From: a virus
Direction: 5' to 3' (one strand)
Virus record (IMG/VR): IMGVR_UViG_3300030090_000331
Span: 1-28,165 of that record
Length of the DNA: 28,165 nt
In this document: positions 7,276 through 18,240 of the stretch, piece by piece
Layout: each line of letters begins with the position of its first letter
Position numbering within the stretch: position 1 is the stretch's first letter
Translations under genes and position numbers: made by a program
The notes under the pieces: generated by a model
What the model saw: only the letters and a program-made list of their open reading frames with translations
What the model was told of the DNA's origin: nothing
Database searches by the model: none

Positions 7276-8178
7276 ATGGTTTCAAAAATAGAAGTCGATA
7301 CAGTAGTCAATCAGAGTGGCGACCAAGATAGCGGATTAGATTTATCTACTAATGATGTGGTTGCAGTAAAGACTGCTAATACAGAACGCACAAGAGTAGA
7401 TGCTAACGGTAATCTTGGTTTAGGGAATAGCTCACCAACTACTATGTTAGATATTGTTTCTCCAACTAAAGTAAGGTCAGCCATTAGAGGAACAGATTCT
7501 ACATCAGATAATGCGTCTAAAACTTTTGGTATGCTCTGCCGACACTATGATTCAGATGAAGAAGATTTTGTAATGATTCAATCGGTGTCTGGTAGTTCTT
7601 CAAATGTTGTTGATATTGGTGGTGGAGATTTAATCGGAACACATAACGCTTGTACTACACTCAGACTTTTCACTGCAAGTAATCAGACAACAACAGGTGG
7701 AACATCAAGACTATCAATTAATAGCAGTGGTGCTGTTACTATAGGTGGTTCATTATCAAAAGGTTCTGGTTCTTTTAAGATTGACCATCCTCTTGAGTCT
7801 AAAAAAGACACACATCATCTAGTACACTCATTTATAGAAGGACCACAAGCAGACTTAATCTATAGAGGTAAAGCAACCTTATCATCAGGAACAGCTACTG
7901 TAAATATAGATACAGTAAGTGGAATGACCAGTGGAACTTTTGTAGCGTTAAACACAAATGTGCAATGTTTTACAAATAATGAAAGTGGTTGGACAGCAGT
8001 TAAAGGTTCAGTAAGTGGTAACACTTTAACAATTACAGCACAAGATAACTCTTGCACAGATACAATATCATGGATGGTTATTGGTGAAAGACAAGACCCA
8101 CACATCAAAGATAGTAACACGGATTGGACTGACAGTGATGGTAAAGTTATTGTTGAACCAAAGAAAGAGAGTGAGTAA
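7276..8178 (+). CDS. Fibre protein with marine-phage C-terminal domain
   Basis: This encodes 300 residues, with AGGAG 8 nt upstream. The N-terminus 'MVSKIEVDTVVNQSG' resembles the other small fibre genes here. Residues about 30-70 (TERTRVDANGNLGLGNSSPT) are a shaft motif, and residues about 150-300 hold a domain starting 'FKIDHPLESKKDTHHLVHSF' then 'IEGPQADLIYRG', a recurrent C-terminal module of marine phage fibres. The tail ends with 'DWTDSDGKVIVEPKKES'. The C-terminal domain has two Cys (in NTNVQCFTN and QDNSCTDTI) that could pair. The probable role is a second fibre or fibre tip, separate from the 661-residue protein. Confidence 0.65.
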   Translation: MVSKIEVDTVVNQSGDQDSGLDLSTNDVVAVKTANTERTRVDANGNLGLGNSSPTTMLDIVSPTKVRSAIRGTDSTSDNASKTFGMLCRHYDSDEEDFVMIQSVSGSSSNVVDIGGGDLIGTHNACTTLRLFTASNQTTTGGTSRLSINSSGAVTIGGSLSKGSGSFKIDHPLESKKDTHHLVHSFIEGPQADLIYRGKATLSSGTATVNIDTVSGMTSGTFVALNTNVQCFTNNESGWTAVKGSVSGNTLTITAQDNSCTDTISWMVIGERQDPHIKDSNTDWTDSDGKVIVEPKKESE

Positions 8179-8792
8179 TGACATCAACATTAAAAGTAAG
8201 AAACATAGAGATGGGCGAGGGTGCTGCATCAGATAGTAAAATATTGTTTGATGGCAATGCTCAAGACTTTCACATAGGACTAGACGATAGTTCTGATAGC
8301 TTAACAATAGGTCTAGGCTCTGCATTAGGCACTACATCACACATGGTTATGGATGCTAATGGTCATATAACTAAACCATTACAATCAGCTTTTTTAGCAG
8401 TTCCTGCATCAGACCAAACCAGTATTGCAGTAGCTTCTGAAGAAACTGTTGTTTTTGGCACAGAGGTATTTGACCAAAATGGAGATTTTGCATCTAATAC
8501 ATTTACAGCACCAGTTACAGGAAGATACCAGTTAAATGTTGCAGTTAGATTGACGGATGTTGATAGTGCTTCTAACTATTATTATATTAGAATTGTTACA
8601 TCTAACAGAACATTTTATCAGATTTTTGACCCTGATTTTGGTCAAGATGCTGATTTTTGGACTTTAACTATAGCTGTTTTAGCAGACATGGATGCAAGTG
8701 ACACAGCACATGTAATATTTGCACAGCAAGGTGGAACACAGCAAACAGATGTTCAACAAGCTTCTAGTTTTTCTGGTTATCTAGTCTGCTAA
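8178..8792 (+). CDS. C1q/TNF-like fibre tip protein
   Basis: This encodes 204 residues, starting in the upstream stop (TAATG). The N-terminal ~65 residues are a fibre-like region (SKILFDGNAQDFHIGLDDSS; SHMVMDANGHITKP). The C-terminal ~135 residues match the C1q/TNF jelly roll: 'QSAFLAVPASDQ', then 'FDQNGDFASNTFTAPVTGRY' and 'QLNVAVRL', closing with 'SSFSGYLVC'. The F-x-A-P-x-x-G-x-Y pattern and the terminal F-S-G-Y-L are the C1q hallmarks. C1q domains trimerise and often form ligand-binding tips on fibres. The final residue is a free Cys. It is the last fibre gene of the cassette. Confidence 0.75.
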   Translation: MTSTLKVRNIEMGEGAASDSKILFDGNAQDFHIGLDDSSDSLTIGLGSALGTTSHMVMDANGHITKPLQSAFLAVPASDQTSIAVASEETVVFGTEVFDQNGDFASNTFTAPVTGRYQLNVAVRLTDVDSASNYYYIRIVTSNRTFYQIFDPDFGQDADFWTLTIAVLADMDASDTAHVIFAQQGGTQQTDVQQASSFSGYLVC

Positions 8793-9127: not shown

Positions 9128-9622
9128 ATGTTCGATCCCATCACTATATCTGCTAGTCTTGGAATCGCAAGTCAGGCTTTCAGTAACATCAAGCGTATGT
9201 TTCAGGCAGGACGAGACTTGGAAGCCATGTCACAGGACTTGTCAAGATGGATGGGAGCAGTCAGTGATGTAGACAACGCACACAAGTCAGCCAAGAATCC
9301 TTCAATGCTACGTAAGGTTTTTAGTGGTGGCAGTATAGAGCAAGAAGCTATCGAAGCATATACTGCTAAGAGAAAGCTAGAAGAACAACGCTATGAACTA
9401 AAGCAGTTTTTGATGTTCACATATGGCAGTAAGTCATGGGACGATTTGCTTGCAATGGAAGGGCAGATACGCAAGAGAAGACAGAAAGAAGTATATGACA
9501 AACAAGTGTTTAGAGAAAAGGTTATAACATATGTCGCTTTGGCAGTGGTTCTTACTGTTGGTACTGGTGTTTTGGGTATGTTTGTATTTACCCTTATGGG
9601 GTTTGACAGAGGGTGGTGGTAA
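9128..9622 (+). CDS. Helical protein with C-terminal membrane anchor
   Basis: This encodes 164 residues starting 2 nt after the upstream stop. Residues about 1-30 have an amphipathic/hydrophobic start (ITISASLGIASQAFSNI), residues 30-130 are charged and helical with several Arg/Lys-rich segments (TAKRKLEEQRYELKQF, GQIRKRRQKEV), and residues about 134-158 are a clear transmembrane helix (VITYVALAVVLTVGTGVLGM). This is a tail-anchored topology with the body in the cytoplasm. The DNA for the anchor is shared in another frame with the start of the next gene (9531-9622). A role in lysis or membrane remodelling at infection is plausible; I cannot name a family. Confidence 0.65.
   Translation: MFDPITISASLGIASQAFSNIKRMFQAGRDLEAMSQDLSRWMGAVSDVDNAHKSAKNPSMLRKVFSGGSIEQEAIEAYTAKRKLEEQRYELKQFLMFTYGSKSWDDLLAMEGQIRKRRQKEVYDKQVFREKVITYVALAVVLTVGTGVLGMFVFTLMGFDRGWW
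9516..9521 (+). promoter_or_regulatory. Ribosome-binding site inside the upstream gene for the overlapping Cys-rich gene
   Basis: AAAAGG lies 9 nt before ATG 9531, within the coding sequence of the 9128 gene. It supports independent initiation of the second frame. Confidence 0.5.
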
Positions 9623-10025
9623 CGGTGGGTATCACACAAGAGATAAATGTGTACGTAAACAAGGTGGACAAGAGACTTTTGAATGGATTTGTGTAAACAA
9701 ACATGGTATAATACAGGTAGCACAATCCGATAATATTAAAAACTGTTACACCTGTTTTCTCAAGAAGTTCAGTGATTGGACTTGGGAGCAAGAAAAAAGA
9801 CTAGGCAAACGTGAAGACCCAAAGTATATCACATGCCGTAGATACAAAAGAAAGACAGCCAAGAACGGACAGCAAGTGTGCTTGTACAAGGGGGCAAATA
9901 ATACATATACGCTAGTGGTTGAAGGTCAGTGTCCAACAGAGTATCGTTGCAAATATGACCCACATGGATCTGAACCCAATATAGATAGTGTAGTAGATTC
10001 ACTGAATGATAGTTTTAAGAAATAA
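9531..10025 (+). CDS. Cys-rich exported protein overlapping the previous gene
   Basis: This encodes 164 residues and begins 92 nt before the end of the upstream gene, in a +1-shifted frame. ATG at 9531 has AAAAGG (9516-9521) 9 nt upstream; an in-frame stop lies at 9525-9527, and no other Met exists in the frame, so this start is nearly forced. Residues about 2-24 (MSLWQWFLLLVLVFWVCLYL) are a signal or anchor helix. The rest is basic and contains eight Cys (DKC, WIC, NCYTC, ITC, QVC, GQC, YRC), an even number that suggests disulphides in the periplasm. There is no lipobox before the anchor Cys. A spanin-like or outer-surface role is possible but not shown. Confidence 0.65.
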   Translation: MSLWQWFLLLVLVFWVCLYLPLWGLTEGGGNGGYHTRDKCVRKQGGQETFEWICVNKHGIIQVAQSDNIKNCYTCFLKKFSDWTWEQEKRLGKREDPKYITCRRYKRKTAKNGQQVCLYKGANNTYTLVVEGQCPTEYRCKYDPHGSEPNIDSVVDSLNDSFKK

Positions 10026-10027
10026 AT

Positions 10028-10264
10028 ATGGAAATAGACCCAGTAATATTTTGGAACGTAGTGTTAACACTTATCATAGCTCCTGCTGTATGGGCTTTTC
10101 GTAACATGATGGCTGAAATAAAACGTATAGATATACTGCTCAACAGAACACGAGAAGACTATGCATCACGAGCAGAAGTAAAAGATGAGATGCAACATGT
10201 AATGGAAGCACTACACAGACTAGAAGATAAACTAGATAGAGTATTAAGTAGAGAGAGCAGATGA
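10028..10264 (+). CDS. Small membrane-anchored coiled-coil protein (holin/spanin-like candidate)
   Basis: This encodes 78 residues. Residues about 5-24 form one transmembrane helix (PVIFWNVVLTLIIAPAVWAF). Residues 27-78 are a highly charged heptad-like helix ending in 'MEALHRLEDKLDRVLSRESR'. The N-terminal anchor plus coiled coil resembles inner-membrane spanins and single-helix pinholins, and also small structural membrane proteins seen in marine phages. It follows the Cys-rich gene by 2 nt and overlaps the next start (ATGA). Since no holin, lysin or other spanin is seen in the window, this is the best lysis-associated candidate, by topology only. Confidence 0.6.
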   Translation: MEIDPVIFWNVVLTLIIAPAVWAFRNMMAEIKRIDILLNRTREDYASRAEVKDEMQHVMEALHRLEDKLDRVLSRESR

Positions 10265-12156
10265 ATACATTTCAAGGATTTAAACCGTCAGGTATGGAAA
10301 AGATAGCCAACGCTATGGGCTTTCAAGGTAATATAAACGACTTTCAAAAGTTTTTAAATGATAACCCAGATCGTCAAGCTGAGATGATGCGTTATCAAAC
10401 TATGGCACGTAAGATGGTAGAAGGTGGTTATGTAAAGAAGATGCAAGAGGGTGGAGACACTACACCTGAAAAACCAAAGAAAACTACTATTACAGACGTA
10501 ACAGCTACACGAGTTACAGAACCTAAGTTACCCACAGGTGCTGTGGTAAATCCATATGGTGTACCTACAGATGATACTCAATTTATAGACCCAGATAAAT
10601 CTGCACTAGGCACTACACCTACAGGCACTGCTATGGGTGCAGGAACAGAAGACGCAGTAGCACCTGAAAAAACAGATGTTACTACAGTTGAAGCTACTAA
10701 AAAAGCAGATGAAGTAGATGCAGTTAATAAATCAATAGAGACAGCACAATCAGACCCTAATGATCCAAGAGCAAAGGTAACAGCACAAGCATCAACTAAA
10801 TCTATGGTGGGAGATTTAACAGCTGCCGAAGGTGTTGCTCACGTAATAGACAGTCCTGCAAAGAGAGAGTTAGATAGAAACGAGATAATAGAGCCAGTAG
10901 CTAATGCACAAAAAGCAGCTAAGTTTACAGAAGAAGTACAGGCAGCCACTGCTACACCATCAGAGAAAGCTACTGTAGCAGGACAGATGAAGACCCTTAC
11001 AGAGGGTTTTGATGCTACCAATCCACCACCTTGGGCTGCAGGAGCTTTACGAGGTGTTATGGCTCAAATGCAAGCCAGAGGTATGGGAGCATCTAGCATA
11101 GCAGGACAAGCTATGGTACAGGCAGCCTTAGAATCTGCACTGCCTATTGCATCAGCCGATGCAAAAACACAAGCATCCTTTGAAGCACAAAATTTATCCA
11201 ACAGACAGCAACGTGCTATGCTTGCTGCTCAACAACGTGCTACATTTATAGGTCAGGAGTTTGATCAGGCATTTCAAGCCAAGGTTATGAATGCTGCAAA
11301 AGTTAGTGACATAGCCAACATGAACTTTAATGCAGAGCAACAGATTATACTAGAGAATAGTAGGGCTGTAAATACTATGAACCTAGCTAATCTTAGCAAC
11401 AGACAAGCTCTAGTAATGGCAGAAGCAAGTGCATTAGCCAACTTAGATATAGCTAATTTAAATAATAGACAACAAGCACAGGTCATGAACGCACAAAGCT
11501 TTTTGCAGTTAGAAATGGCTAATCTATCTAATAAACAACAAACAGAATTGTTTAAGGCTCAAGCAATGCAAACTGCTCTGTTTAATGATCAAGCTGCAGA
11601 AAATGCCGCAAAACAATTCAATGCAACTAGTCAGAATCAGTTAGATCAGTTTTTTGCAAATCTTAAAACACAAGTGTCACAGTTTAATGCTGCCCAACAA
11701 AATGCTCACAATCAATTTAATGCAGGTGAAGCAAATTCAATGGAAAAGTTTAACCAAGAAATGCAGAACCAACGTGACCAGTTTAACTCAAAGAACAGAC
11801 TTATAATAGATCAGAACAATGCACAGTGGAGAAGAGAGATAGCTACTGCTGATACTACAGCTATTAACAGAGCTAATGAACTCAATGCTACTGCGTTACT
11901 CAATATGTCAAACAGTGCATACAATAACTTATGGAACTATTACAATGACGTTATGGAAATGTCATGGGAAAGTTCTGAGAATGAAAGACAAAGAATTGTG
12001 CAGATGGCAATAGCACAGCTACAATCTGAGACATCTAAGGAGTTAACAGAGATGAAAGCAGATTATGATAGTGCTGTAGGTTTTGGTAGTCTAATAGGTA
12101 CATTCCTGACTGCAGGAGCAGACAGTATATTAGGAAAGATGTTTAAATTTTCATGA
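10261..12156 (+). CDS. Internal/ejection protein with 11- and 22-residue helical repeats
   Basis: This encodes 631 residues. The N-terminal ~60 residues (GMEKIANAMGFQGNINDF ... YVKKMQEGGD) resemble the starts of several marine phage virion proteins. Residues about 65-250 are low-complexity, rich in Thr, Ala, Pro and Asp. Residues 311-440 carry N-L-x-N-R/K-Q cores spaced by exactly 22 residues (311, 377 = 311+66, 399, 421). Residues 453-510 have Phe every 11 residues (453, 464, 475, 486, 497, 508). A hydrophobic C-terminus 'VGFGSLIGTFLTAGADSI' ends the chain. Position before other internal protein genes fits a DNA-ejection protein assembled in the capsid core; that role is inferred. Confidence 0.6.
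   Translation: MNTFQGFKPSGMEKIANAMGFQGNINDFQKFLNDNPDRQAEMMRYQTMARKMVEGGYVKKMQEGGDTTPEKPKKTTITDVTATRVTEPKLPTGAVVNPYGVPTDDTQFIDPDKSALGTTPTGTAMGAGTEDAVAPEKTDVTTVEATKKADEVDAVNKSIETAQSDPNDPRAKVTAQASTKSMVGDLTAAEGVAHVIDSPAKRELDRNEIIEPVANAQKAAKFTEEVQAATATPSEKATVAGQMKTLTEGFDATNPPPWAAGALRGVMAQMQARGMGASSIAGQAMVQAALESALPIASADAKTQASFEAQNLSNRQQRAMLAAQQRATFIGQEFDQAFQAKVMNAAKVSDIANMNFNAEQQIILENSRAVNTMNLANLSNRQALVMAEASALANLDIANLNNRQQAQVMNAQSFLQLEMANLSNKQQTELFKAQAMQTALFNDQAAENAAKQFNATSQNQLDQFFANLKTQVSQFNAAQQNAHNQFNAGEANSMEKFNQEMQNQRDQFNSKNRLIIDQNNAQWRREIATADTTAINRANELNATALLNMSNSAYNNLWNYYNDVMEMSWESSENERQRIVQMAIAQLQSETSKELTEMKADYDSAVGFGSLIGTFLTAGADSILGKMFKFS
11191..11790 (+). repeat. Hendecad repeat region encoding a long regular helix
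   Basis: In codons of the 10261 gene, N-L-x-N-R/K-Q cores begin at 11191, 11389, 11455 and 11521, giving gaps of 198, 66 and 66 nt (multiples of 22 codons). The run of Phe codons at residues 453-508 is spaced by 33 nt. Both periods are multiples of 11 residues, the signature of a hendecad (right-handed or straight) helical bundle. The copies are diverged in DNA, so this is a structural repeat, not a recent expansion. Confidence 0.85.
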
Positions 12157-12377
12157 GCAGATATAGTCCAACAAACCCTGCCGTAGATGCTTGCTTAAAT
12201 TTAGAAGCAATAATCAATAGGCAAAAACCTATGGAGCTAGAGTCAAAAGCTACCAGAGGATTAGTTAGTAAACAAACACCAACAGCACCTGAAGCTAAAC
12301 AAGACGTGATGGACAAAGTTGCGTCTTATGTACAGGCTATTAGAAGAATAAGAGAAAAGTATAAGCAAGATGGCTGA
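12153..12377 (+). CDS. Small uncharacterised protein
   Basis: This encodes 74 residues. It begins in the stop of the upstream gene (ATGA) and overlaps the next by 8 nt, so translation is coupled to both. The protein is hydrophilic, helical at both ends, and basic at the C-terminus (YVQAIRRIREKYKQDG). No motif or membrane segment is seen. It belongs to the run of internal-protein genes and could be a small virion or scaffold component, by neighbourhood only. Confidence 0.5.
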   Translation: MSRYSPTNPAVDACLNLEAIINRQKPMELESKATRGLVSKQTPTAPEAKQDVMDKVASYVQAIRRIREKYKQDG

Positions 12378-12876
12378 TGATAGACAAATACAAATGGATT
12401 CCCCTATTCCGGGAATGGGAATGACTGCACCTTTAGGTGGTAGACCTTGGCAACAACCACCACAGATGGCTACAGTAGAACAAGCTATGGAATATTATGT
12501 GCAAAAGCTAGAAGATCCAGACTTTGTACCAGAGCTACTAACCGTTATAGAATTAGGTGTGCCACTGACAACACTTGCCAACACTATGCAACTGGCATCT
12601 GTTATGGAGGGTAAGCACAGTATTGATGTGGGTATGCTCGTAATACCTATACTGGTAGAACTTATGTCCAACATGGCTGAAGCTAATCAAGTGCCATTCA
12701 AGAGTGGCATGGAGAGAGAAGAAACTGGAGAGATTAGCCCTGCAACTATAGCACTAGCTAGAAAACAGGGTAAACTAAAACCAATGAAAGGGGCAGAAGA
12801 ACCTGCTCCACAACCACAGCCAGAACAACCACCAGAACAGCCACCAATGGGTTTGATGACAAGAAGGGAACAGTAG
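12370..12876 (+). CDS. Pro-rich virion-associated protein
   Basis: This encodes 168 residues. A Gly/Pro/Met-rich N-terminus (SPIPGMGMTAPLGGRPWQQP) is followed by a helical core (residues about 32-115; hydrophobic segments 'PELLTVIELGVPLTTLANTM' and 'DVGMLVIPILVELMSNMAEA'). The C-terminal tail is Pro/Gln/Glu-rich (APQPQPEQPPEQPP). The core hydrophobic stretches are too punctuated by charge to call firm transmembrane helices. Similar architecture occurs in small proteins next to internal virion genes in marine podoviruses (from memory). Overlap with the previous gene and a 1 nt gap to the next place it in the same unit. Function unknown. Confidence 0.5.
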   Translation: MADDRQIQMDSPIPGMGMTAPLGGRPWQQPPQMATVEQAMEYYVQKLEDPDFVPELLTVIELGVPLTTLANTMQLASVMEGKHSIDVGMLVIPILVELMSNMAEANQVPFKSGMEREETGEISPATIALARKQGKLKPMKGAEEPAPQPQPEQPPEQPPMGLMTRREQ

Positions 12877-12877
12877 G

Positions 12878-14113
12878 ATGAAGTTTTTAACAGCGTTAGG
12901 ATTAGCTGCAGGTGGTGCATCTAAGACCATACAAGAGGGTCTAGATAGAGAGCAGAGAGAAAGAGACAGAGCAGCCAGATCTGCAGAAGCTGCAGCAGGT
13001 AGACAGCATCAGACAGATCTACTGTATAAAAGAAGAAGATTTGATCAGTTAGATAAACTTGTAGAAGTGCAAGAAGCTTTATCAGCTTTAGGTCTAGATG
13101 AAAATCAAATAGCTGCAAACTTAAGTGGTGGCATGGCTAATGTAGAAAGGCTACAAAACCTTAAACAAATTTCTGCTGATAACAATATAGACTTCCCCTC
13201 TGCATTAAATGTTACCTTTGGGGAAAACTTTAACCCAGAGGATATACAGGGTGGTGCTGTAAACTTTGTTCAGAGTAACTTATTGGATGCAAGACTAGAG
13301 GGCAAGGTATATAAGAATCCATACAGAACAGAAGTATCTGATCAACTTAAAGCACTAGAATCTATAGGTGATCCTGTAGGATTTAGGAAGCAAATAGAAA
13401 ATCAATATAACACAATATACCGTCTTGAACAACTAATAGATAGGGGTACAAATGTAGAACAAAATCAAAAGTTAGTTAATCAGAAAAGAGATTTAATTAA
13501 AGAGCTAACAAATAAGTATGTTGAGATGGAAAAGACGGTAGCCACAGATAATAAAGGTTTGTTAGCATCAGGATATATGTCTCTAGCACTACGTAAAGTA
13601 AAAGATGCTAAGAAAGGTGCATTTGGAGAGCTTATAGAAACATCTGCTCTGGGAGCAGTTACTAAAAAATTTACAGGTAATTATGGCAGAGCATTTGAAG
13701 CATATCTAACAAGTATAGAAAGCATAAAAAATGAAATACAGGCATATAATCCTAAAAATCCAAATGCAATTAGTGGTGGAAGTGCAGCCTTTATGAATGA
13801 ACTAACTGTGAATGCTAATACACAGTTAATAAATGAGTATAATTTAGAATATCTTGACAGACTAAGAAAAGGTGCAGAAAGAGATCGTGACATTAAAAAT
13901 ACGTTCAAGCCAAAATTAATAAGTTTATCAGCCCCAATGTCTGATGCTGAGAAAAGATTATTAAAATCAGGAGATGTTGTAAAACACATAGTTAATGGTC
14001 AGCCTAAGTATGAAATATTTAGAGGTTTTGCAGAGCCTACTCAGGCAAATCCTACAGGTATACAATTATTCCTTCCTCAGGATATATTAAACACTTATAA
14101 TCCACAACAATGA
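12878..14113 (+). CDS. Internal virion protein candidate
   Basis: This encodes 411 residues, starting 1 nt after the upstream stop. The N-terminus has a short hydrophobic start (MKFLTALGLAAGGASK) and then a strongly charged helix (residues about 20-60; LDREQRERDRAARSAEAAAG). The rest is helical with coiled-coil potential and hydrophobic patches, and a compact C-terminal domain ends near 'IQLFLPQDILNTYNPQQ'. It overlaps the start of the giant gene by 4 nt. In podoviruses the proteins made just before the giant ejection protein commonly form an ejection complex with it; that is the inference here. No enzymatic motif is seen. Confidence 0.5.
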   Translation: MKFLTALGLAAGGASKTIQEGLDREQRERDRAARSAEAAAGRQHQTDLLYKRRRFDQLDKLVEVQEALSALGLDENQIAANLSGGMANVERLQNLKQISADNNIDFPSALNVTFGENFNPEDIQGGAVNFVQSNLLDARLEGKVYKNPYRTEVSDQLKALESIGDPVGFRKQIENQYNTIYRLEQLIDRGTNVEQNQKLVNQKRDLIKELTNKYVEMEKTVATDNKGLLASGYMSLALRKVKDAKKGAFGELIETSALGAVTKKFTGNYGRAFEAYLTSIESIKNEIQAYNPKNPNAISGGSAAFMNELTVNANTQLINEYNLEYLDRLRKGAERDRDIKNTFKPKLISLSAPMSDAEKRLLKSGDVVKHIVNGQPKYEIFRGFAEPTQANPTGIQLFLPQDILNTYNPQQ

Positions 14114-17100
14114 ACCCACAACAACAACAACAAAATGATGACTACATAGCGAGTATGCTAAGTGGTGGTGTCTCTCAGTCACAGGACTCAGAGCAACAAC
14201 CTGCACCACCTATGCAATCACAGCCTAGAAAAAGTCAAAGTAATGATGATTACATAGCTAGTATACTAGAAGGAGAGTCTACTGGAAATGAACTCAATGA
14301 CATAAATATAACTCCACAAGACACTATGGGTGTTCATGCTGAAATAGATCCTACAAAAACTACAACAGAACAGAAGACAGAACTTGCTCCTGAAGGTGAG
14401 AAGTGGGGCTTTGGAGATTATGCAGAAGATATAGCAAAGGGTTTAATAAGAGGTATACCTAGTGCCATAGCTGAAGTGACTGAGACTATTGCCGACATAG
14501 ATGAGTGGAGTAAACAATATACAGGCACATTAATTTCTAAAGACTTAGGTAAAAAAGGTTTTGGCTTTGAGGATCTATTTCAAATACCAGACTATGTATC
14601 TGGTGAAGAGTATTTAAAACTAAAAGAACAATATGGTGAGGAATTTAGAAATTCAACTATGTTATATATGTTCTCAAATAAAATTGATCAAGTTAGAGAT
14701 AAACTTATTACAGATATAGGCGAATTTACAGGCTTAGAAGGGTTTCAAACAGCAGAAACTGAATCAGTTATTGGTGGAATTGGAGAGGGTGGAGTACAGT
14801 TTGCAACAGGGTTTGGAATTACAGGCAAACTAACAAAACTAGGTGGCTATGGATATAAAAATTTATTTCTAAAAGAAGCTATAGTTGGTGCAGCATTCTT
14901 TGATCCAGAGGAAGCACTGCTGACAGACTTAGGTGTGTCATTTTTAGATGGTGTACTTGGCACTAACATGGCAGAATACATAGCAAGACAAGAAGATGAC
15001 AGCGTATTTGTAAAAAGATTAAAAGGTGCAGGAGAGGGTGTATTATTTGGAGTCCCATTAACCTACGCAGGGGACAAGATAGCCAAAGTATTTAAGGGAA
15101 TTAAAGATAAGAAGATAGCTATAGAAGATGCTAAACTAGAGCAGAAGAAGACAGGCAAAGTATCTGACGAAACTATGGAACGCATAGATGCTAATGGCAA
15201 AATAATAGCAGAGGATGCAGCAGAAGTTGAAGAGATAATAGCTAATGCAAAACCTAACAAAAAAACTATAAAAAAAGCAAAGAAGATTAGTGACAATGTG
15301 CAGAAGATAAAGGCAAAGCAGACAGAGGTAAAGCAAAAGAAAATAGAAGCAAACAAAAAGGTTGTGAAGTCAGAGGTAAAGATACACAACGAACTGGTAG
15401 AAGAGTTTGAAGATAATTTAGGCATAAACAAAGACTTTATCAGGGGAGATAGTGGGTATATAACAATAACCACAGTCAAAGGTGGCAAGAGAATACTAGA
15501 CCCAACAAAGTTAGAAGCTGCCAAGAATTTATCTGTACAAAAGATAGATGAAGTTGACACTGCAAACAGTAAGTTAGCAACCAGACAAGACCCAAGGATG
15601 CCACAGAGTGTATATATAGAAAAGGGTGTAGAGGACAAGTATGATATAAGCGAATTGTTTGACAGAGTTTTAAAGGTTGAAAATATTGAAGCTCTCACAG
15701 TCGTAGCTAAAGAACTAAGAGATGCCAATCCTAGTATGTGGAAAGACAAAAAGAAGATAACTATCAGAGATCAGAAAACTGGTAAGAAGAAAAGAGTCAC
15801 AGTAAAAAAATCAGTTATGGAAAACATATTTGACTCTGTCACTAGAGGAGACTTGACACTTCGTGCAAATCATCCTCTGTGGGATGCACTAGATAAGGCA
15901 GGTATGTCTTTTGAAGACTTTACTCTTATGCACCTAGGCTCTGCAAGTCAGGCAGGTAAGATACTAAATAAGTATTCACAGTTAGCCAAGAGAGTAAAGC
16001 CCAAGAGCCAGAAGCAACAAGATGAATTAGATGAAATGTTAAAGAATCAGAACAGAACTGCTCAGTGGTTTAGAAGAGTAGAGAATGTAAGACGTGGTCT
16101 TCTTGTATCTCAGATAGCAACTGCTGCCAGAAACTTAGAGTCAGGTCTGCTCCGTACTCCTATAGAAGCATTAAATAATATAGTAGAAACAGCTACTATG
16201 GATATAGCCAATGGCAATTTCTTTAGTGGTAAGAATAGATTAATAAAGAAAACTACATGGACTGATAGCTTTGCAGGTATGCGATACATATTTGCTGACA
16301 GAAAGACAGCAAAAGAATTTACAGATATTTTATTAGGTGATCCTGATAATCCTGATCTGATAGCCCACCCAAAGCTACAGGATTTTTCTGACAGAATGTT
16401 TAACACAATCAACGAGATACAATTAGCCACAGGTAGAGGTAGTGACACTACATTTGACAAACTTATGTCAAAGGCAGAAGATTTTACACAGTTACTTAAC
16501 AAACCAAATCGTTGGCAAGACTTTATGCTAAGACGTGGTATATTTATGGGTGAAGCACAACGTCTGTTCAGAGATAAGTGGGACATAGATCTAATAGAGG
16601 TACTAAACAGTGGCAGACTAGATGATTTAATGAATGATGCTAGAGATCTTAATCCTACTTTCAAGGTGGTGGATGGCAAAGATCAATTAGGAACAACAGC
16701 AACAGAGATATTTGCAGAAGCTACTGAAAGAGCCTTAGATTTAACTTATGCTAACCCACCTGAGTCACCATTTGGTAAGGCTTTTGCCAACTTCATAACA
16801 AAAAACAATCTTACAGTAATCATACCGTTCCCTAGATTTATGGCAAAGAGTATGGAACTTATGGCTGAGAACTCTGTGGGTGCTTTCCTGCCTTGGACAA
16901 GAAGAATATATGGTCTTACAGGATATGGAGCAAAGAGACTTGGAGATAAGTTCACTCCAAGAGAGCATCGCATGATAGCACGTAATGCAACAGGTGCATT
17001 GGGTGTTATGGCTGCATCAATGATGTTACGAGAGACTGACCAACAGGGAGAGGACTATAAACTTGTACCTGTAGGTGACGGCACAGTTCTGGATGTAACA

Positions 17101-18240
17101 CCACTGTTTCCTCTTAGACAGTTCTTCTTCTTAGGCAAGATATTAAATGAATATTACAGAGCTTCTGAGCAGACTGATTGGCTATCTGGTGGTAAAGAAG
17201 CATTCTTTCAGACATTTGATAGAAGAGAGTGGGCTGAGACATTCCTAGGAACTAGCTTCAGAACTGGTGTGGCAGGTAATCTGGTGGATGAAGCTGCATC
17301 TTTGTTCAATGAGCAGGACTTAACCAACGCTGAATGGTGGGGGAAAAACTCAGGACAGATATTAGGAGATTACTTATCTACATTTGCTGTGCCTTTGAAT
17401 CAGGTGCTAGATTCACAAAGAGCATTAGGCATTAGAGGGCTTGCATACAAAGAGACAGCCAAAGATCCTGAGATTGTGAGTGGCACAGATGCATTTATAG
17501 AGGGCTTTGTTAAGCCATTTAGAAAGTATGATCCTTTTGGAGCAGTGGTAGACGAGAGTGCATTGCCTAAAAAAGAAGATCCTTTTCAAGAAGAAAGAAG
17601 ACGTGTTGCACCACTAGCCAAGATTGCATTAGGTCTTAACATGTACAGTGCTGACAGTGAAGAGGGTAAAAAATTAAAGTCTTTGGGATTTGATAAGTGG
17701 GATGTAAGTAGTAGATCTAGAATACCAACCGTAAGAAACTTTGAGAACAAGTCAATCAGAGAGAACCTACCATTCATAGTAGAAGAAGCCACTGAACTAG
17801 AAGCATTATGGGGTAGCATGTATGATGCTAACCAGAGAGAGCTATCTCAGATAGGTGGTGGTAGAATACTTGGGCTGATAGACACAGGTATTAGCAAAGA
17901 AAAATATATAAAAGATAATGTGAAGAAATATATTAAAGATCAGATAGATCTTTTTAGAAATCCAACTGATAGTCTCGTGGCACTAGATGATCCACAAAAG
18001 ATATTAGAGTATCAGTCTATGATAGATTACAGAAGACTATCAAAGAATCAGAGGTCAAAGGGATGGTTTAGATTTGTGGAAGAAGAGGAAAGATCTCCCT
18101 TTGATTTCACAAGTGAATATCTAGAGAGAGCTTTACCTGAGTTTGAGGATTTAAGTGTTGATGACAAAAAGCAAGCATTAAAGAATCTAAAGCTACAAGA
18201 TTTACAGCTACTTTTTCTCTATGGAAAAGAGTCTCCGTAG
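14110..18240 (+). CDS. Giant internal / DNA-ejection protein candidate
   Basis: This encodes 1376 residues, the largest product in the window and the usual size of podovirus ejection proteins (T7 gp16 is about 1300). The N-terminus contains a short motif twice, NDDYIASMLSGG (9-20) and NDDYIASILEGE (45-56). Residues about 200-325 are glycine-rich and hydrophobic ('FATGFGITGKLTKLGG', 'LKGAGEGVLFGVPLTYAGDK') and could insert in a membrane. Residues about 330-440 are a Lys/Glu-rich coiled-coil. Residues about 650-1376 are helical and mixed, with hydrophobic patches. No lytic transglycosylase, peptidase or ADP-ribosyltransferase motif was found by eye. It ends 4 nt before the first minus-strand gene. 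Confidence 0.6.
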   Translation: MNPQQQQQNDDYIASMLSGGVSQSQDSEQQPAPPMQSQPRKSQSNDDYIASILEGESTGNELNDINITPQDTMGVHAEIDPTKTTTEQKTELAPEGEKWGFGDYAEDIAKGLIRGIPSAIAEVTETIADIDEWSKQYTGTLISKDLGKKGFGFEDLFQIPDYVSGEEYLKLKEQYGEEFRNSTMLYMFSNKIDQVRDKLITDIGEFTGLEGFQTAETESVIGGIGEGGVQFATGFGITGKLTKLGGYGYKNLFLKEAIVGAAFFDPEEALLTDLGVSFLDGVLGTNMAEYIARQEDDSVFVKRLKGAGEGVLFGVPLTYAGDKIAKVFKGIKDKKIAIEDAKLEQKKTGKVSDETMERIDANGKIIAEDAAEVEEIIANAKPNKKTIKKAKKISDNVQKIKAKQTEVKQKKIEANKKVVKSEVKIHNELVEEFEDNLGINKDFIRGDSGYITITTVKGGKRILDPTKLEAAKNLSVQKIDEVDTANSKLATRQDPRMPQSVYIEKGVEDKYDISELFDRVLKVENIEALTVVAKELRDANPSMWKDKKKITIRDQKTGKKKRVTVKKSVMENIFDSVTRGDLTLRANHPLWDALDKAGMSFEDFTLMHLGSASQAGKILNKYSQLAKRVKPKSQKQQDELDEMLKNQNRTAQWFRRVENVRRGLLVSQIATAARNLESGLLRTPIEALNNIVETATMDIANGNFFSGKNRLIKKTTWTDSFAGMRYIFADRKTAKEFTDILLGDPDNPDLIAHPKLQDFSDRMFNTINEIQLATGRGSDTTFDKLMSKAEDFTQLLNKPNRWQDFMLRRGIFMGEAQRLFRDKWDIDLIEVLNSGRLDDLMNDARDLNPTFKVVDGKDQLGTTATEIFAEATERALDLTYANPPESPFGKAFANFITKNNLTVIIPFPRFMAKSMELMAENSVGAFLPWTRRIYGLTGYGAKRLGDKFTPREHRMIARNATGALGVMAASMMLRETDQQGEDYKLVPVGDGTVLDVTPLFPLRQFFFLGKILNEYYRASEQTDWLSGGKEAFFQTFDRREWAETFLGTSFRTGVAGNLVDEAASLFNEQDLTNAEWWGKNSGQILGDYLSTFAVPLNQVLDSQRALGIRGLAYKETAKDPEIVSGTDAFIEGFVKPFRKYDPFGAVVDESALPKKEDPFQEERRRVAPLAKIALGLNMYSADSEEGKKLKSLGFDKWDVSSRSRIPTVRNFENKSIRENLPFIVEEATELEALWGSMYDANQRELSQIGGGRILGLIDTGISKEKYIKDNVKKYIKDQIDLFRNPTDSLVALDDPQKILEYQSMIDYRRLSKNQRSKGWFRFVEEEERSPFDFTSEYLERALPEFEDLSVDDKKQALKNLKLQDLQLLFLYGKESP
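14134..14277 (+). repeat. Duplicated NDDYIAS motif at the giant protein's N-terminus
   Basis: AAT-GAT-GAC-TAC-ATA-GCG-AGT at 14134 and AAT-GAT-GAT-TAC-ATA-GCT-AGT at 14242 encode NDDYIAS twice, 36 codons apart, each followed by a hydrophobic-Leu-x-Gly pattern. The spacer is Gln/Pro/Ser-rich. The pattern looks like two short linear docking sites on a flexible tail. Confidence 0.8.

Follow-up and report, generated by a model that had tools for sequence, protein, structure and literature searches.

The 631-aa protein encoded at 10261-12156 (+) of the window, the 28,165-base virus fragment analyzed here, is built around an 11-residue register that holds from residue 301 to residue 553, and among its homologues this rod changes length in whole 11-residue units. 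We consider it most likely to be an ejection-cassette protein, in the position of gp14 or gp7, with an unusually long hendecad rod. The fragment derives from a marine podophage of HMO-2011 type, and the gene, delimited by its open reading frame and by its homologues, begins with an ATG that overlaps the stop codon of the preceding 78-aa gene (10028-10264). Its product shares 57% identity with phage1322_25 of Puniceispirillum phage HMO-2011; homologues are present in 27 phage records, from Roseobacter (CRP), Pelagibacter (HTVC), Vibrio, Aeromonas, Pseudoalteromonas and Rhizobium/Sinorhizobium phages, and the family is encoded on at least 575 IMG/VR contigs. Phage1322_25 and the homologues in CRP, HTVC, CHOED, phiM6 and MQM1 (26-57% identity over the matched part) lie in the same cassette and have rods that differ by units of 11, and some of these homologues possess S74 or LysM domains or long N-terminal additions. 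The HMO-2011 copy (L066:12001-14118) has an additional C-terminal extension of ~70 residues, unlike most other members. All homologues are annotated as hypothetical except one "huntingtin" (ctYwJ313, L079:2285-4876), a label that probably arose as an artefact from the Gln richness of the repeat; this copy has the longest rod, with 338 residues between the anchors defined below. No Pfam or PHROG family matched the 631-aa protein, and the designation "internal virion protein" in the initial annotation was therefore an assumption. A contig scan with the protein as query found no relatives in bacterial genomes, sequence and profile searches found no solved structure of any relative, and Foldseek returned no match of its model to the PDB at E <1.

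The periodicity of the protein is real and stronger than first described. The NL.N[RK]Q cores reported at residues 311 (NLSNRQ, 11191-11208), 377 (NLSNRQ, 11389-11406), 399 (NLNNRQ, 11455-11472) and 421 (NLSNKQ, 11521-11538), and the phenylalanines reported at 453, 464, 475, 486, 497 and 508, are exactly placed. They had been described as two series, and both are real, yet they are not separate, since Asn cores and phenylalanines share a single 11-residue grid over residues 301-553 (11161-11919, +), that is, 23 units of 11 with Asn at unit position 11. This position is occupied by Asn in 15 of the 23 units, with 6.5 expected and none of 20,000 permutations as high, while the six phenylalanines form a chain at position 10 of successive units that was likewise matched by 0 of 20,000 permutations. 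Column information in the rod reached significance for a period of 11 (z 8.6) and of 22 (z 8.8) only, and not for 7, 9, 10, 12, 13, 15 or 18. The hydrophobicity autocorrelation, whose lack of a peak at 11 had been named as evidence against the hendecad reading, does show that peak: over residues 251-560 the maxima fall at 33, 22, 44 and 11 (z 4.6, 4.5, 3.2, and 2.9, respectively), and the identity autocorrelation likewise peaks at 11, 22, 33 and 44. The first half of the rod (residues 301-443; 11161-11589, +) alternates with period 22 (LSNRQQ... / AQxFLQ...), and the second half (residues 444-553; 11590-11919, +) has period 11, with F-N at unit positions 10-11. A long helix of about 200 residues and ~30 nm had been proposed; the length needs revision, as the register spans about 253 residues and would measure about 38 nm if formed by a single straight helix.

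The number of 11-residue units varies among relatives, and it does so by a strict rule. The comparison, which had been suggested with the initial annotation, covered 115 distinct homologues and used as anchors P295 and W523, conserved in 110 and 113 of them (A297 in all 115). The spacing between the anchors equals 228+11k residues in 114 of the 115, with k from -8 to +10 and observed values of 140, 151, 162, 173, 184, 217, 228, 283, 316 and 338; the sole exception is contig L100, with 317. Motif positions taken without alignment gave the same lengths for 55 sequences. Within residues 480-553, 39 of 40 gaps are multiples of 11, as opposed to none of 51 in residues 236-295 and none of 47 in residues 554-600, just outside the rod, where the flanking segments vary freely in length. 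Tree parsimony requires a minimum of 12 length changes at a first indel site and seven at a second; a few of these may be double counts at places where a gap was spread out by the aligner. Such quantised lengths suggest a rigid assembly, which would probably be part of the machinery passing viral DNA into the host.

The rod is one of several distinct segments of the protein, all on the + strand. A small helical N-terminal domain (residues 1-54; 10261-10422), modelled by AlphaFold2 with a pLDDT of about 81-89 for residues 11-50, is followed by a low-confidence, probably disordered linker (residues 55-235; 10423-10965), in which the indels of relatives are of any size; some relatives have long N-terminal additions and one has a LysM domain. 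Additions of several hundred residues before the rod were observed in L027, L028, L035, L037, L052, L070, L072, L075 and L076, and those of CRP-1, CRP-2, CRP-603, L027 and L052 matched no Pfam family. Residues 236-300 (10966-11160) form a conserved helix-turn-helix segment with near-invariant columns (motifs PxWAAGA, RGxGASS and PIA) and predicted helices at 257-272 and from 279 onward. Beyond the rod, a C-terminal helix (residues 554-605; 11920-12075) prolongs it with indels that do not come in 11s, and a Gly-rich hydrophobic C-terminus (residues 606-631; 12076-12153), not universal in the family, closes the protein.

The interpretation of the repeat as a hendecad helical rod is borne out by the whole-unit length changes, by the AlphaFold2 prediction, which contains helix only and no strand in the repeat, and by a near absence of proline (one in 29,173 rod residues family-wide). 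The rod consists of 15.5% Gln and 15% Asn, with 1.4% glycine. On the family-average hendecad wheel, the hydrophobic residues fall into two stripes (unit positions 1/9 and 10/7) that are almost opposite each other, so that the strongest lines of the hydrophobic spectrum are at 11/4 and 11/5, with little power at 11/3. Periodicity near 11/3 = 3.67 is weak over the whole rod (0.4) and clear in residues 444-553 (8.2), while remaining overall far below 11/4 and 11/5. Judging from this spectrum, the rod does not appear to be a hendecad coiled coil of the classical type, with one hydrophobic face. The two stripes are suggestive of helices that each pack between two neighbors, as the helices of a barrel or a sheet do.

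The genomic setting fits DNA ejection. The hendecad gene is the first of a co-oriented cassette located downstream of the tail genes, and is followed by a 74-aa ORF (12153-12377, +), a conserved 168-aa protein that most relatives within the phage group encode as well (12370-12876, +), a mid-sized protein of 411 aa in a gp15/gp20-like position (12878-14113, +) and a very large one of 1376 aa (14110-18240, +), the last and largest, in a gp16-like position; neither of the latter two matched any family. Similar layouts ending in the largest protein occur in HMO-2011, Slicky01, CHOED and phiM6, and the arrangement resembles T7 14-15-16 and P22 7-20-16, podophage ejection genes being ordered as gp14-like, gp15-like and gp16-like (PMC8954989). 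A peptidoglycan hydrolase gene lies directly downstream of the rod gene in CRP-207, CRP-13 and CRP-603 (with matches to LysM and, weakly, GH19; to lysozyme/SLT; and to Hydrolase_2), and the rod protein of CRP-235 itself bears LysM; the hydrolase neighbors and the LysM fusion speak for a function at the cell wall.

The protein would thus be the first of the DNA-ejection cassette and occupy the place of T7 gp14, P22 gp7 or DEV gp73, outer-membrane channel proteins that are likewise helical products of the first cassette gene; the AlphaFold2 model of the 631-aa protein is largely alpha-helical, as are ejection proteins of the gp14/gp7 position. P22 gp7 also shares with it a Gly-rich hydrophobic C-terminal stretch, and T7 gp14 assembles into a hexameric channel whose subunits have two helices each (PMC11784390). 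First ejection proteins of T7/P22 type are, in contrast, about 196-240 aa long (PMC8954989), against 631 aa with a 253-residue rod in the window. Profile comparison of the family with T7 gp14, P22 gp7, P22 gp20 and phiX174 H revealed no similarity, and hhalign against T7 gp14 and P22 gp7 gave probabilities of 0.1-2.4%, a weak test in that even gp7 and gp14 show no match to one another. P22 gp7 (L137:1370-2059) showed an identity excess at lag 18 (0 of 300 shuffles as high), possibly an 18-residue helical repeat, and in T7 gp14 (L135:729-1319) the excess at this lag was borderline (p 0.053).

In the mechanism that we propose, residues 301-553 would make up an almost straight rod of alpha-helix with 23 hendecads, each 11 residues making three turns, and several copies would most likely pack side by side, keeping register, to build a long helical assembly rich in amides. 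Located inside the virion, this assembly would lengthen the path that the DNA takes from the tail into the envelope of the cell, and only whole 11-residue units would be gained or lost because each helix must keep register with its neighbors. Taken as a whole, we regard this explanation as evenly balanced. A rod lining a DNA conduit, as the initial annotation had imagined, appears compatible with the data: the gene stands first in an ejection-like cassette, and its product resembles the phiX174 H tube in being rich in amides; the two opposite hydrophobic stripes also fit a helix flanked by two neighbors. PhiX174 H forms a decameric tube that is 170 A long and spans the cell wall; N, Q and R give its lumen an amide and guanidinium lining, and its helices comprise three hendecads and eleven heptads (PMC7354561). 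Hendecad repeats, helical structure and Asn/Gln richness are thus common to H (Table 1, PMC7354561) and to the rod, but H has three hendecads and then heptads where the rod has 23 hendecads, its hydrophobic residues occupy the neighboring wheel positions 4 and 7 where the rod has two separate stripes, and the two proteins share no sequence similarity. The 30% N+Q of the rod is only suggestive of an amide-lined lumen. Hendecads and an amide-rich lumen have a precedent in phiX174 H; what the present analysis shows is the repeat, its quantised lengths, the predicted helicity and the place of the gene in the cassette, while the location within the virion, the packing of helices next to one another and the role as a channel are inferred. 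The broader proposition, that a widespread family of phage ejection proteins builds a very long hendecad DNA conduit (a rod of 20-50 nm) as a barrel of two-stripe helices, with lengths in 11-residue quanta only, is put forward tentatively and is rather doubtful at present. Our literature search found no virion proteomics or microscopy for any family member, and no description of how the short-tailed virions of HMO-2011-type phages, which are widespread in the sea, cross the cell envelope. In genomes whose genes are called hypothetical the rod protein may serve as a marker for the ejection cassette, and the rule that only whole hendecads change makes the structure of the rod testable.

Peptidase_S74 is a trimeric chaperone of fibres and spikes, and its occurrence in the family makes a trimeric rod a serious rival: three copies of the protein would form an undecad coiled coil serving as a needle, a plug, a spike shaft or a fibre, and S74, where this domain is present, would assist its folding. 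PF13884 is found in eight of the 115 homologues (CRP-3, CRP-738, CRP-212, CRP-235, L030, L034, L039 and L124), right after the Gly-rich C-terminus, and tail-fibre genes lie upstream of the rod gene. Undecad trimers also exist, such as NadA3, an 11-residue periodic coiled coil like the rod (PMC6191539), but an unrelated bacterial adhesin in which, as for any trimer, a single hydrophobic core is expected. A trimer needs a single hydrophobic face, and the family average shows two nearly opposite stripes instead; S74 is confined to those eight homologues and absent from the 631-aa protein of the window, and the cassette and hydrolase neighbors fit ejection. In Octadecabacter DB virus 2, moreover, an S74 protein adjoins a cell wall hydrolase, so that S74 alone is not proof of an external fibre. 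We consider the trimeric rod possible, if on the unlikely side. The Octadecabacter protein (gp18, L213:5356-7832), which is called tail spike/chaperone, directly precedes the hydrolase and resembles an ejection-position protein, and its family did not match the rod family in profile comparison.

The repeat could also fold into a compact helical bundle or a solenoid of 22-residue helical units instead of an extended rod. This is suggested by the period of 22 in the first half of the rod, by the low pTM of the AlphaFold2 models (0.24 and 0.25), and by helix breaks near 331-335, 355-357, 377-379 and 436-448, all in the first half, which also has low pLDDT in the core model. The full-length model (pLDDT 56.6, pTM 0.24) has helix with breaks over residues 279-617, but in the core model the second half belongs to one 172-residue helix (449-620) of moderate confidence (pLDDT mostly 70-85). 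Given also the scarcity of proline and glycine and the occurrence of length changes by single 11-residue units, a compact fold seems improbable, and we retain the extended rod. A beta-solenoid or leucine-rich repeat, an idea prompted by the N-L-x-N cores, the 22-residue period and the weak similarity to Nischarin that phmmer reported (E 0.92), was ruled out by the absence of predicted strand, the single 11-unit indels and the lack of any profile match.

Recombination can expand or contract repeats by whole units, and the length steps might then stem only from a 33-bp DNA repeat that recently duplicated or slipped, with no selection on register. The DNA of adjacent units is, however, only slightly more alike than chance (34.8% of bases identical at lag 33 and 40.5% at lag 66, where chance gives about 29.5%), and identical residues in adjacent units share codons no more often than expected; both comparisons disfavor recent slippage. 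Furthermore, the register is kept in relatives at 25-40% identity, and small indels are nearly absent in the rod while frequent around it. Slippage is for these reasons a very unlikely explanation, and the whole-unit rule appears best explained by selection on the protein register; the 11-residue units may have originated by ancient duplications. The least probable alternative takes up the length ruler of the initial annotation and would have the length of the rod fitted to the periplasm or envelope of the host, an idea that draws on the quantised, more than two-fold range of anchor spacings in the family (140 to 338 residues) but that is hardly tenable because phages of one host strain, FZCC0040, have spacings of 162 (CRP-3, CRP-212 and CRP-235) and 217 (CRP-207), and Pelagibacter phages of 162 or 316.

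Other features of the window were noted in the surroundings of the rod gene. Residues about 314-424 of the 1376-aa protein (15049-15378) have a significant identity excess at lag 7, probably a heptad coiled coil. Just upstream of the 78-aa gene, overlapping ORFs at 9128-9622 and 9531-10025 contain hydrophobic segments and are perhaps part of a lysis cassette, and among the tail-fibre genes a protein with a C1q-like domain (8178-8792; PF00386, E 1.2e-7) is encoded, which is also present in HMO-2011.
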